IMG/VR virus record: IMGVR_UViG_3300032241_003189
Coordinates: 1-26,785 of that record
Strand: one strand, 5' to 3'
DNA from: a virus
DNA length: 26,785 nucleotides
The translations under genes were made by a program, and so were the position numbers. The notes under the pieces were generated by a model. It was not told where the DNA came from, ran no database searches, and saw only the letters and a program-made list of their open reading frames with translations. Below are positions 6,741-12,221 of the stretch, in pieces. Position 1 is the first letter of the stretch, and every line of letters starts with the position of its first letter.

Positions 6741-7805
6741 TCAGTTGACCGCGAGCTGCAGGATGCCGCTCGTATGTTGCGCGTGGATCAGCTCGTAGTT
6801 TTCCACGGTGATGACGATCTTCTTGGGACCGTATTCGTTGAGATACACGGCATACTCGCCGCCGCCGCCGAAACCGTTGAAGGTGTGGCGGACGAGGTTG
6901 GACGGATCCATCGGGCCGGTGTCCTTGAGGCCGGTGAAGACCAGGACGTTTTGGCCGATGATTTCCTGTTTGGCCGCAGAAGTGTTCTGGTAACGCTCGG
7001 CGTTCACCAGCACACTACCCACACCCAGCGCGGCCGCGATTTCCGCCTCGCTCTGCGCTTGCGCGCGGGCGATGGAACCGGCGGTCAACTGGCTTTCGTA
7101 GGCGTTGGCGCGCTTGAGGTGCGCGCGATCGCCGTAGGCCACGTTCTGCGGGTAGAACCCGGTGACATCCGCGAGCGTCAAAATGCGGCTGCGCAAATCG
7201 AGGTCGGGATTGCTCGCGCTGTCCCAAGTCGTGCCGGCATTGATTGCCGACGCCTGGTAAAGCGCGATGGCTTCGAGGATCGAAGCGCGATTGAGGATAT
7301 CAATCAGCCACTTCGTGTGGTCCTGCTGCAGCTCGGGTTTTTCCTTGAGCTGATCGCGGTCCAGCACCACGGACAAGCCGCGGTTGAACCCGGTGAGGTC
7401 CGCCTTGGTGGCGGTCTTCTGCCGGACTTCCATGAACTCGGCCAGCAAACCGCGCTTGACCTTGGTGTAATCCACGGTTTCAAACGGTTCATTCTCGTTC
7501 CAGGTGGTGAGCCGGAAGATTCGGCTGGGCGTCGGGCGGGCCGGCGCGATGAAATCGCGCAGCTTCACGAGGCCGTTGCCGGTCATGCCGGAGTAGCTCG
7601 CCGCGAAGAGCGTGAGTTCGGTGATCGGTTCGCTCGTGCGGAGGAGCGAATCGTTGGGCAGGGCCACGCTGCCGCTGGGCAGGTTGTCCATGTCGTTGGC
7701 CAGGGCGTAACCCTGACCCGCGAGCGCGCCGGCGATGGCGGCCTGACGAATGGCGCGGAGAGACCCCGGCACCTTCGTGTTTTGATCTACAGTCGTTTGT
7801 TTCAT
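6741..7805 (-). CDS. Putative major capsid protein, 354 aa
   Basis: Size, position after the protease-scaffold and cement genes, and overall composition fit an HK97-fold major capsid protein. Supporting stretches are FRLTTWNENEPFETVDYTKVKRGLLAEFMEVRQ, an E-loop / spine-like middle, and a C-terminal segment with LVRHTFNGFGGGGEYAVYLNEYGPKKIVITVENYE typical of the P/A domain end of such proteins. The first 50 residues are polar/helical and carry ALAND (34-38) and ALPND (48-52), which could be maturation cleavage sites (see findings). No SD; the leader is A-rich (CATCATTAAAAAAAT). Hairpins follow its stop. Confidence 0.8.
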   Translation of the reverse strand: MKQTTVDQNTKVPGSLRAIRQAAIAGALAGQGYALANDMDNLPSGSVALPNDSLLRTSEPITELTLFAASYSGMTGNGLVKLRDFIAPARPTPSRIFRLTTWNENEPFETVDYTKVKRGLLAEFMEVRQKTATKADLTGFNRGLSVVLDRDQLKEKPELQQDHTKWLIDILNRASILEAIALYQASAINAGTTWDSASNPDLDLRSRILTLADVTGFYPQNVAYGDRAHLKRANAYESQLTAGSIARAQAQSEAEIAAALGVGSVLVNAERYQNTSAAKQEIIGQNVLVFTGLKDTGPMDPSNLVRHTFNGFGGGGEYAVYLNEYGPKKIVITVENYELIHAQHTSGILQLAVN

Positions 7806-7844: not shown

Positions 7845-8417
7845 TTACAGCGGGTTGTTCGGGTTGGTCAGCGTGCCGCCGGTGACGGTGATGAGATACG
7901 GCACGTCCGGAACGTAGGGGATTTCCATCGTGCTGCTGGTGGCGGCGATGGTCGCGGCCGCACGGCCCACCACCCAGTAAGTGCCGTTCGCCACCGTGGC
8001 AACGTCCGACACCTTGCCGCTGCCGGAGGAAACCAGCAGGTGATCAATCGTCACCGCCGCGGCGGCGATGCCGATTTCGTAACCCGGCCGGGCCCCGAGC
8101 CGGCGCACGGCCAGCACGTCGCCCACGGCATACGGCGCATCCGGCGTCACGCCCACGGGCATGGCCGCGAGGTTGGAGCCGCCATTCGCCAGGTCGGCGT
8201 ATTGGTAACCGCTCGCGCCGCGCTGCACGAGCAGGTAGCGGCCGGTGAACGGCGCATTGCCGGACGCCGGATCGAGCAGCAAAGACTCGATGCCGTGTTC
8301 GTTGATGAGGCCAAGCGCGTTGGGCAAAGCCATGGCGTGGGCCGGACGGAAGAGGCAGTCAATACTCGCGAAGAGCGTGCCAAGCAGAATCGCGAAACGT
8401 TTTTTCAGTTGTTTCAT
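7845..8417 (-). CDS. Capsid cement/decoration-like protein with a signal-like N-terminus, 190 aa
   Basis: From residue 40 on the pattern is that of phage capsid cement (decoration) proteins: RYLLVQRGASGYQYADLANGGSNLAAMPVGVTPD, then YAVGDVLAVRRLG, then VGRAAATIAATSSTMEIPYV, i.e. alternating 'value reset / GD-V / vGrA' beta units. Such proteins are normally about 100-130 residues and cytoplasmic. Here an extra N-terminus MKQLKKRFAILLGTLFAS...RPAHA-M looks like a Sec signal peptide. An internal ATG at residue 29 (MALPNALG) has no SD or A-rich leader, whereas the first ATG has the operon's usual A-rich leader, so the long form is preferred. Location just before the major capsid gene supports the call. 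Confidence 0.6.
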   Translation of the reverse strand: MKQLKKRFAILLGTLFASIDCLFRPAHAMALPNALGLINEHGIESLLLDPASGNAPFTGRYLLVQRGASGYQYADLANGGSNLAAMPVGVTPDAPYAVGDVLAVRRLGARPGYEIGIAAAAVTIDHLLVSSGSGKVSDVATVANGTYWVVGRAAATIAATSSTMEIPYVPDVPYLITVTGGTLTNPNNPL

Positions 8418-8910: not shown

Positions 8911-9621
8911 TTACGGCTTTTTGGGCGCGAGCTTGGCGGCGAGACCGCTCCATTTCGGGAGCGTCATGATGCGGTTGTGCGCCTCGCTGATGTTCTGGCC
9001 GGTGGATGGCAACTCCTCTTCCATCGCCTTCTTGTATTCGTTGGCGAGCGCGGTGGCCTCGTTTTCCAACGCGGCGGCCTGCTTGCGGGTTTCGTCGGCG
9101 TTTTCGCCCGTCTTTACGACCGGCGCGGCTTCGTCCAGTTTCTTGAACTCGGCGGCGAAGTCCTTCGCGTTCGCGAGCGCGGTGATGGTTTCCTCGCGCT
9201 TTGAGACCGCGAGCTTGCCCTTCTGGATCACGAGATCCACAGCCATCTCGGCGCGTTGTTTATTCGCGACCGTCACGTCGTTTTCCAACGCGGTGACTTT
9301 GTCCACGACTTTGCCGGCGAGCAGTGCGGCAACCTCGGCGTCAAAATCCTTCGCATTTTCCAACGCGGTGATTTTGCCATCGCGATCGGCGGCGGCGATC
9401 CGGCCGCCGAGCAAGGCACAATCCACGGCGAACGTGGCGGCCTTGCGGCGGAAGGTGTTGGTGGTGGTGGTTGATTTCTCGTTGGCCAGCGCCGTAGCTT
9501 CACTGCCTTTGGCAGCGAGCACGGTCTTGAAGCCGTCAAGAACCTGTTCTTCGGTTGGATCGGCTGCGTTGGCGAGCGACGTGGCGCCCATGGCCATCAG
9601 CCATCCGGCTAGTTTTTTCAT
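8911..9621 (-). CDS. Internal in-frame scaffold start (Mu gpZ-like), 236 aa
   Basis: Within the protease frame a Met at residue 244 (ATG at 9621) begins MKKLAGWLMAMG, the same MKK start style as the neighbouring genes. It is preceded by a run of AAAAAC repeats and AAACTGAC on the minus strand, the A/C-rich leader used by separate genes in this operon. That region encodes only a Lys/Asn linker (KNKNKK), the natural joint between protease and scaffold. In Mu the scaffold Z is likewise made from the 3' part of gene I. The start MKKLAGW...SLANA-AD also looks signal-like, or ends in an LxN motif. Inference from sequence; needs N-terminal protein data. Confidence 0.5.
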   Translation of the reverse strand: MKKLAGWLMAMGATSLANAADPTEEQVLDGFKTVLAAKGSEATALANEKSTTTTNTFRRKAATFAVDCALLGGRIAAADRDGKITALENAKDFDAEVAALLAGKVVDKVTALENDVTVANKQRAEMAVDLVIQKGKLAVSKREETITALANAKDFAAEFKKLDEAAPVVKTGENADETRKQAAALENEATALANEYKKAMEEELPSTGQNISEAHNRIMTLPKWSGLAAKLAPKKP

Positions 9622-10350
9622 GTCAGTTTTTTTGTTTTTGTTTTTGTCCTCGGCGGATGGGATGGCGGCACTGCCGCCCCGGTCGTTGGCGAGGGATTCA
9701 ACACCGGAAATGTTTGGAAATTGCGTGAGCGCCACGCTGATCAGCTTGAACGGCTTGGCCACGATGGAATCGTTTTCCAGCCCGACCGGCAGCACCCACC
9801 AGTAGGCGGAGGGAAACTTGTAGCCGGCCTGCACCGCCGCCGCGCCGTCATTGTCCAGGGCAAAGTGCGCCTCGATGCCGCGCTCAGACTTGCGGATCTG
9901 GTCCACCACGCCGACCTTGATTTTTTCCGCGCTGTTCGCGAGCGACTTCGGATCCACGTCCTTGATGTCGCCGTGCAGTTTGAAAACCGGCACGCCGACA
10001 AACGCGCGCTTGAGCCTGGTGAAAAAGGAATTGTCCTTGCTCACCAGCGCGTCGGCGGATTCGTTGTCGAGCGCCTGGATAAACTTCTTGGTCTTCGCCA
10101 CGCCGGCGTCGGCATATTGATACGTCTTGGGCCAGCGGCCGAATGGTGCGATCAGACACCAGCAGTCATCATCAATGCCAGCGGCGGAATTTTCCAAAGC
10201 CTCGAACGGCATCGGCTCGTCGCTGTTGGCGAGGGCGACAATCCGGCTGCGGTCGGCGCTGGCGGCAAGCGCCAGCAAACCGGGAGCAAATGAACCGGCC
10301 GGCGCAATCACCACGTTAAAATGTTTTTCAATGATGGATTCTTTTTTCAT
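8911..10350 (-). CDS. Prohead protease-scaffold protein (Mu gpI-like)
   Basis: Coupled to the portal gene (ATGA overlap). Residues 1 to about 230 match the layout of Mu I-like proteases: an N-terminal beta start, VPVFKLHGDIKDVDP, then SERGIEAHFALDNDGAAAVQAGYKFPSAYWW, equivalent to the 'dGLxA.v.wt..a...i..g.y.y.SP' region. Residues about 244-479 are helical, charged and scaffold-like. In Mu, gpI processes itself and the internal scaffold Z. The protein carries 14 copies of [ASG]L[ADE]N (Leu at 40, 52, 94, 137, 165, 191, 220, 259, 288, 330, 355, 392, 428, 434), which hold 14 of its roughly 24 Asn. I could not assign catalytic residues. Confidence 0.7.
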   Translation of the reverse strand: MKKESIIEKHFNVVIAPAGSFAPGLLALAASADRSRIVALANSDEPMPFEALENSAAGIDDDCWCLIAPFGRWPKTYQYADAGVAKTKKFIQALDNESADALVSKDNSFFTRLKRAFVGVPVFKLHGDIKDVDPKSLANSAEKIKVGVVDQIRKSERGIEAHFALDNDGAAAVQAGYKFPSAYWWVLPVGLENDSIVAKPFKLISVALTQFPNISGVESLANDRGGSAAIPSAEDKNKNKKTDMKKLAGWLMAMGATSLANAADPTEEQVLDGFKTVLAAKGSEATALANEKSTTTTNTFRRKAATFAVDCALLGGRIAAADRDGKITALENAKDFDAEVAALLAGKVVDKVTALENDVTVANKQRAEMAVDLVIQKGKLAVSKREETITALANAKDFAAEFKKLDEAAPVVKTGENADETRKQAAALENEATALANEYKKAMEEELPSTGQNISEAHNRIMTLPKWSGLAAKLAPKKP

Positions 10351-12221
10351 TTGGACGCGGGGTTTTTTAATGCCTGGGCAAATTGTTCGGTGGTGAAATC
10401 GTTGATGACCTTCGCGGCCTTGGGGCTGGCGTTCACGTCGGCAAGCAGCTTCACCAGCGGGCCGTGTTCGGCGGCAAACTCCTTCATTTTTTTCAGCCAG
10501 AGCGCTTCGTCCTGTATCTGCATGATGGAATTAAACTCGTGCGCAATCGGCGCGAGATCATCCGCGTGTGCGGCCGCGAGCGAGGTGATGATTTTGTGCG
10601 GCGCGCTGTCAGCGTTCGGCAGCGCGTAGCCGAGGCTCGGCATCGGCAGCGTGTTGCCCTGTGCATCCTTCGGCGCGGTGCCGATCTTGCTCCACGCGGC
10701 GGCGGCATCCACCTGCGGGCTGGGCATCAGCGGACTGGCTGTCTGCACCGCGCCGGGCTTCGCGCCGGCGGCGATGGGCGTGTTCTCATCCGTTTTCGCC
10801 GGGATGGCCGCCTGCGATTTCTTGGCCGGAGACCAGTTCGGTTTCTTGTAGCGTTTGGGTTCGTCGGCTTTCGGCGCGGCCGGCGCGGCGGGTTTTGCCG
10901 GCGCGGGTTTTTCCTCGCCGGGCTTGGCCGTTTCTTCCTTCGGCATTCCGCCTTCGGCATTCGGGGGAACGGCCGGAGCGGACGGCGACAAGATGGGTTC
11001 GTCGTCTTCCGGCTCGCGCCAGCCGGTGCGCTCGCGCGCCTGCGCCACGCTGATGGGCAGGCCCATGTTCACCCACGTCTGCGTGTCCGTGGCCTGCGGC
11101 GTCTCTTCTTCCTCGCCGTGGAGCAGAACAAATTTTGCGCGCGGTTCCTGGTTGAACAAGTAGCGGATCACCGGCCGGTCAATGCGCCGCTGCGCGTAGC
11201 CGTTGAACCACGGCACGTCTTGCGAGAGCAGGATGCCCGACTCCTCCATCTGCATGTTTGCGCCAATCGGCTTTGATCCTTGGCCACCGCTGCCGCCACC
11301 TTGGCCGGTGGCGCTGCCACCCCGCGAGCTGGTCGCCAGATCCACGCCGCGCAGACATTTTGAATAGAGCCGGTCCACGCGCTCGACCAACGGCTCGAAC
11401 GGCGTGTGATTTTTTTGCGACTGTTCGAGAAACTTGAACGTGGTGGTTTTGTTCGCCAGCACGGTGGCATCGTTCGCCAGCGTCTCCAGCGCCTGCAATG
11501 CCTGGTTCCATTCGTCCGTGCCCTGCTCGGCATCCGTTTCGCCAATCAAGAAGCCGGATCCGTAGCGCTGGCAGAACAACAGCCAGTCGCGCATCGGAAA
11601 CCATTTCAGCGCGAAGGCGGTCATCAGCGGGCGCATCCAGCCGCGGCCCACGGCCGTGAACCATTCGCCCTCGATGCACGGCTGGCCATACATATCAAAG
11701 ATATGCTGCAGGTAGCCCAGATAACCGCGGCGGGATTCCATGAACCACACCGGCACTTGGCGGAACTCGCACGTCACCTGCTTGGCGCCGGCGCTGTCCA
11801 CGCGCATGAGCATCTCGTGCACGTTGTATTTCATCAGGTGCGCGCTCCACGCCGTCTGGTAAATCAAATGGCTCACGCCGCCGACTTCATCCTGATCCAG
11901 CGCGTGCGTGGCGGTGAGGTTGTTATAGAAATATTGCAGCGCCTCCTTGTGCTGGTCGCCGATGATGGATCCATCGCTCTTGATATCCCAGGCGAGCGAA
12001 GCCAGGTCGGACGCGCGCTTATCGGCATTCACGCCCAGCTCGCCGTCAATCTCCACCATCACCTCCCAGATCTTGCCCACGTCGCGGTATTCGCCGATGC
12101 GCGCGGCGTTCCGGTAGCGGGTGAGCATGTCCATGTCCAGCTCCGGCATGGGGGAATACCGGAGCCGCATCGCCCACTCGATGCGCGCCTGGTTGAACTT
12201 GGAAAGTGCGGAGATGTTCAT
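10347..12221 (-). CDS. Portal protein (Mu gp29-like, DUF935 type), 624 aa
   Basis: The portal forms the dodecameric DNA gate at one head vertex. Family features: QARIEWAMRLRYSPMPELDMDMLTRYRNAA start region, EVMVEIDGELG, LMKYNVHEMLMRVDSAGA, WMRPLMTAFALKWFPMRDWLLFCQRYGSGFLIGETD (the conserved core), and NMGLPISVAQARERTGWREPEDDEPIL near residue 400. After this a Pro/Ala/Lys-rich linker (about residues 405-480) leads to a helical C-terminal region, making it longer than Mu gp29. It follows the large terminase gene after a 151-base gap and its stop overlaps the protease start (ATGA). Start at 12221 is the first in-frame ATG; no strong SD. Confidence 0.88.
   Translation of the reverse strand: MNISALSKFNQARIEWAMRLRYSPMPELDMDMLTRYRNAARIGEYRDVGKIWEVMVEIDGELGVNADKRASDLASLAWDIKSDGSIIGDQHKEALQYFYNNLTATHALDQDEVGGVSHLIYQTAWSAHLMKYNVHEMLMRVDSAGAKQVTCEFRQVPVWFMESRRGYLGYLQHIFDMYGQPCIEGEWFTAVGRGWMRPLMTAFALKWFPMRDWLLFCQRYGSGFLIGETDAEQGTDEWNQALQALETLANDATVLANKTTTFKFLEQSQKNHTPFEPLVERVDRLYSKCLRGVDLATSSRGGSATGQGGGSGGQGSKPIGANMQMEESGILLSQDVPWFNGYAQRRIDRPVIRYLFNQEPRAKFVLLHGEEEETPQATDTQTWVNMGLPISVAQARERTGWREPEDDEPILSPSAPAVPPNAEGGMPKEETAKPGEEKPAPAKPAAPAAPKADEPKRYKKPNWSPAKKSQAAIPAKTDENTPIAAGAKPGAVQTASPLMPSPQVDAAAAWSKIGTAPKDAQGNTLPMPSLGYALPNADSAPHKIITSLAAAHADDLAPIAHEFNSIMQIQDEALWLKKMKEFAAEHGPLVKLLADVNASPKAAKVINDFTTEQFAQALKNPASK

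Follow-up and report, generated by a model that had tools for sequence, protein, structure and literature searches.

The virus of Verrucomicrobia represented by the window (the whole 26,785-base viral record analyzed here) very probably cuts its capsid proteins after Leu-any-Asn (L-x-N), and not after the glutamate of classic phages, as judged from sequence comparison. The product of its gpI-like gene (8911-10350; all features of the window given below are on the minus strand) can with considerable confidence be regarded as a prohead protease of the T4 gp21 type fused to a scaffold, which would cut at P3-x-Asn in itself, in the scaffold, in the capsid protein, in a second head protein and in the portal tail, with a P3 that is switchable by lineage. 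The preliminary description had suggested that L-x-N is the counterpart of the T4 site (I/L)xE; this suggestion is strongly supported, short of proof, by conservation of the motif in close homologues and by joint switching of P3.

Genome neighborhood and relatives

The gene set of the window comprises a terminase, a Mu-type portal protein, gpI, a 136-aa ORF, a 190-aa head protein and the capsid protein, with gpI, scaffold part included, located between the portal and major capsid genes. The portal protein (10347-12221) matched PF06074 (E 9e-36 over residues 51-400), and the AF2 model of the major capsid protein (6741-7805) showed the HK97 fold (Foldseek E 7e-13 to 3bjq and 8e-8 to HK97 2ft1). 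In the 190-aa product (7845-8417), a putative decoration protein, a variable N-terminus precedes a conserved body, and 102 of the 111 relatives encode a homologue immediately upstream of the capsid gene. The 479-aa gpI matched the phrog_328 profile (Mu-I-type head maturation protease) with an E-value of 4e-9; a profile search with PF10123 was above the cut-off in the relatives L004 and L133 and gave no match for the gpI of the window.

Relatives were collected from 388 Verrucomicrobiota genomes and by an additional scan of viral contigs; together these searches yielded 111 capsid proteins and 103 gpI sequences. As a direct query on viral contigs gpI yielded zero matches; the capsid protein was used as query instead. 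Among 50,697 phage records, no match was found to the capsid proteins of the window, L104 and L045 or to gpI.

The L-x-N motif in gpI

The preliminary description had counted 14 copies of [ASG]-L-[ADE]-N in gpI, with S, E, D or A as the next residue of each, which together hold 14 of roughly 24 Asn residues. The recount agreed: gpI contains 14 L-x-N triplets, all of this form and all followed by one of these residues, and the total of Asn is exactly 24. The Leu positions 40, 52, 94, 137, 165, 191, 220, 259, 288, 330, 355, 392 and 428 were likewise correct; the last Leu is at 435 instead of 434, so that the smallest spacing is 7 instead of 6, and the reported lack of a heptad rhythm stands. Shuffled gpI sequences contained 1.94 L-x-N on average, with none of 1,000 reaching 14, and among all residue pairs at spacings of 1-7 L-x-N ranked first (z 9.4). 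The extended form L-x-N-[DESA] was found 14 times versus 0.7 expected.

Close relatives (lineage A) contain 8-14 L-x-N per gpI where gpI is a single ORF. Across five aligned lineage A sequences both L and N are invariant at 220, 259, 288, 355, 392, 428 and 435, while the middle residue at 288, 355, 392, 428 and 435 is A, G, E, S, T, P, N or Q; a fixed L and N with a free middle residue is the pattern that would be expected of P3 and P1 of a cleavage site. The LEN site at Leu52 (10189-10197), directly before the protease domain in a low-confidence and probably disordered part of the model, is predicted to be the N-terminal autocleavage site, and its P3 is the gpI column that best tracks the class of the phage. 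The LAN site at Leu220 (9685-9693), invariant in lineage A, lies between protease and scaffold and adjoins a low-confidence linker (residues 223-241). A further LAN site invariant in lineage A, at Leu259 (9568-9576), is found shortly after Met244 (9619-9621), a conserved Met and the candidate internal start of translation of a Z-like scaffold, and the LEN and LAN sites at Leu428 and Leu435 (9040-9069) lie in the scaffold itself. L006-L008, L020 and L021 encode protease and scaffold in two ORFs, each with the motif, and the scaffold ORF begins near the equivalent of Met244. The sites at Leu 94, 137, 165 and 191 may be left uncut, because they fall within the fold predicted for the protease and are not fully conserved among relatives.

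Residues ~301-410 of gpI (9121-9450) contain a near-tandem duplication of a scaffold unit (RRKAATFAVDCAL...ITALENAKDF / KQRAEMAVDLVI...ITALANAKDF), with one L-x-N per copy, which is absent from the relatives.

Protease domain and fold

The predicted protease domain (residues ~60-222; 9685-10173) is beta-rich in the AF2 model of gpI, which was built from 34 sequences (pLDDT 78). His126 of a GH.D motif (9973-9975) and Ser205 (9736-9738) are candidate catalytic residues; H126, D128, S181 and S205 are invariant across 34 homologues. In a Foldseek comparison of the gpI model with the PDB, T4 gp21 (5jbl) occupied ranks 1-3 (E 1.5e-3 to 4.5e-3, prob 0.92-0.98), and the HCMV protease gave a weak fold match (prob 0.16). 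Herpesvirus assemblin is, like gpI, a protease-scaffold fusion, and it releases itself; it cleaves Ala-Ser bonds and, unlike what is proposed for gpI, does not cut after Asn.

Sites in the capsid, head and portal proteins

The capsid protein does contain ALAND and ALPND, and the portal protein LANDATVLANK, as had been reported together with the gpI repeats. L-x-N-[DESA] occurs three times in the capsid protein versus 0.66 expected (p 0.026) and twice in the 190-aa protein versus 0.29 expected (p 0.03), and none of the other tested ORFs of the window reached p 0.05 (portal 0.10). The N-terminus of the six lineage A capsid proteins is poorly conserved except for two L-x-N-D sites 14 residues apart, both of them invariant. 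At the first of these, a LAN-D at Leu35-Asn37 (7695-7703) that would represent a second propeptide site, L, N and D are invariant in the six proteins. The other, LPN-D at Leu49-Asn51 (7653-7661), is predicted from the alignment to be the maturation site, and the conserved capsid body starts after Asn51. P3 of this site is Leu, Ala or Phe among the relatives, seldom something else, and the residue following Asn is mostly E, D, S or A. The capsid protein of L142 has Asp in the P1 column (VAMAD-AAS), the sole exception to Asn besides L072 and L073.

In lineage A the 190-aa head protein is built in the same order, with a variable N-terminus, L-[AP]-N-[AS] and a conserved body; in the window the boundary of the body is marked by LPN-A at Leu31-Asn33 (8319-8327). 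The L/I-x-E signature of T4 is not found at the P1 column, which holds Asn in 108 of 111 capsid proteins and in 99 of 102 head proteins. LANDATVLANK of the portal protein is probably structural and not a site, since MAND occurs at this place in some relatives. A better candidate in the portal is YALPN, an LPN-A at Leu534 in the C-terminal tail (10614-10622), outside the Pfam portal domain, with [LIV]PN in 8 of the 9 lineage A portals examined.

Co-variation of P3

The co-variation of gpI sites with capsid sites, for which the preliminary description had recommended an alignment of homologues, was found: P3 shifts jointly in gpI, the capsid protein and the second head protein. Enrichment of L-x-N, the lack of which in homologues had been named as an objection, is kept in close homologues, and in distant ones P3 changes jointly. 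The most enriched P3 in gpI was Leu in 33/35 L-class, Phe in 7/9 F-class and Ala in 9/16 A-class phages, and in the single phage with Glu as capsid P3 it was also Glu; matches were not universal, six phages having Ala in the capsid protein and Leu in gpI. In permutations of gpI against capsid sites, agreement as high as observed was obtained in 0/10,000 cases for P3 (z 6.4), 4/10,000 for P4 and 7/10,000 for P1', with a weak signal at P2 (355/10,000). Since the phages are related, capsid P3 was also simulated on a tree of the capsid bodies, which gave 26.6 expected matches versus 49/70 observed (p ~3e-4 at the fitted rate, 1.7e-3 at one third of it). Independent pairs on well-supported branches changed the same way in 2.4, the opposite way in 0.0 and showed no difference in 2.6 cases; these five pairs are alone not significant, and the tree simulation was used because this test is underpowered. 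P3 of the head protein equaled capsid P3 in 41/64 phages, versus 19 by permutation with a maximum of 32 in 10,000, kinship being ignored. Portal tails showed Leu in 38/89 for the L-class and Ala in 18/31 for the A-class, and the signal was weak in the F-class (5/30).

Positions aligned to Lys75, Leu66 and Phe70 of gpI are associated with the P3 class; this association is confounded by relatedness and is a lead.

Natural loss and possible cargo domains

In L072 the GHPD (catalytic-His) motif of gpI is replaced (LPVVCLENSKQK) and little scaffold remains; its capsid protein has Ser at the P1 column, as does that of L073, and its head protein has no more than a short leader. The joint loss of the motif and of the capsid Asn is supportive of the protease reading, and not proof of it, because it concerns one phage.

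In the portal protein of L004, ALAN is followed by a PBECR3 nuclease domain (PF18812, E 9e-20), and homologous domains follow QFAN in L140 (E 2.5e-20) and EFAN in L125, so that each junction motif agrees with the P3 class of its phage. Fusions of PBECR domains to portal proteins have been described earlier (PMC5512222). By their position these domains could be freed by the head protease.

A repeated module GDxxGHxF[HR]GNQ[YWF] was observed in L105 (1772-5227), in the L004 portal, in the gpI ORF of L020 and L021 and, shortened, in the gpI ORF of L006. It usually stands directly after an x-x-Asn site, is present in three copies in the long gpI protein of L105 and is possibly a cargo or packaging tag. 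The portal tail of L055 contains a PBECR1-like domain (E 9e-5, below the cut-off) after a zinc-ribbon-like segment behind LAN-E.

Alternative explanations

A short motif that is not cut and serves docking during assembly, with scaffold, capsid and minor head proteins binding to one another or to the protease, would also be repeated, common to head proteins and co-evolving, and several L-x-N sites do lie in the predicted helices of the scaffold (residues 242-474, largely helical in the model). Such a motif is nevertheless improbable, as it does not account for sites at the junction of variable propeptides and conserved bodies or at junctions with appended nuclease domains, nor for the missing capsid Asn where the catalytic-His motif is missing; moreover, two anchors around a free middle residue fit the known sites of prohead proteases (PMC9026906). 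The same helices could suggest that L-x-N reflects scaffold structure, such as a preference for coiled coils or helix caps, and that other proteins match it by chance, an explanation of very low probability given the irregular spacing and the occurrence of the motif at fixed boundaries of capsid and head proteins with P3 in step across proteins. The weakest alternative is that repeated DNA or a codon bias gave rise to the motif, as internal scaffold repeats might suggest (e.g., 9281-9319 versus 9356-9394, 77% alike). It was rejected because the codons of the gpI motif differ from site to site (CTC/CTG/TTG, AAC/AAT, GCC/GCG/GAA/GAC), which places the signal at the protein level, and is extremely improbable since L and N are also kept while the flanks diverge and the motif recurs in unrelated proteins.

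Comparison with known systems

In the sources consulted, the prohead proteases with mapped sites cut after Glu: that of T4 after L/I-x-E, phiKZ gp175 after S/A-x-E and SPN3US gp245 after A-x-E, the latter two with many substrates including the portal protein and, in SPN3US, Ser favored after the cut (PMC9026906, PMC10052503). T4 gp21 has the closest solved fold and, as predicted for gpI, a short P3-x-P1 code, a scaffold cut many times and the removal of a capsid propeptide (PMC9026906), whereas the family of the window has Asn instead of Glu as the predicted P1, protease and scaffold in one protein and switching of P3 among relatives. The enzymes of phiKZ and SPN3US have in common with gpI a three-residue code with a free middle residue, and differ from it in P1.

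Mu gpI/Z (PF10123, phrog_328) resembles the system of the window in gene order, in the protease-scaffold fusion and in the conserved internal Met at which a Z-like scaffold may begin. In contrast, the start of the Mu capsid protein was confirmed by sequencing, and that of JBD30 is built from residue 2 (residues 2-14 modelled), i.e., both N-termini are untrimmed. Mu gpI also differs in having just one L-x-N and repeating ALSA instead (LxA 14 versus 6.6 expected). Repeats of A-L-S-A, A-L-K-A or A-L-S-[AD] were observed in the Mu-like gpI of gammaproteobacterial phages (L062, which is Mu gpI, L063, L064 and L066) and may be protease codes of their own, with Ala or another small residue as P1. In the open-access literature, no paper on cleavage sites of Mu gpI or on Asn-specific prohead proteases was found.

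Proposed mechanism and significance

The motif was observed together with its location, conservation and co-variation; that it is cut, at which bond, when and in what order is inferred. Under the proposed mechanism, gpI would cut after Asn inside the prohead according to the code P3-x-Asn, with Leu as P3 in the phage of the window and a small or acidic residue next. It would release itself by cuts on either side of the protease domain and chop the scaffold into small peptides that might exit. The capsid protein would lose its first 51 residues and the decoration-like head protein an N-terminal peptide, and the portal tail would be trimmed. In relatives, P3 would have changed to Phe or Ala together with the substrates.

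A wider proposal, which is conceivable and somewhat doubtful, is that of an Asn-specific prohead protease family in which P3 changed repeatedly between Leu, Phe and Ala and every substrate changed with it, and which would also free cargo inside the head at its own motif (the predicted RNase domains PBECR3 of portals and the protease-borne GHxFxGNQ modules) for injection with the genome. The prohead-protease reading predicts how portal-fused nuclease domains are released, on which the consulted passages of PMC5512222 are silent. A clade with Asn as P1 and a jointly flipping P3 would offer a natural series for locating the residues that set the specificity of the protease. In uncultured phages, a cutting rule that can be read off the sequence would allow the N-termini of mature capsid proteins and the boundaries of cargo to be predicted.
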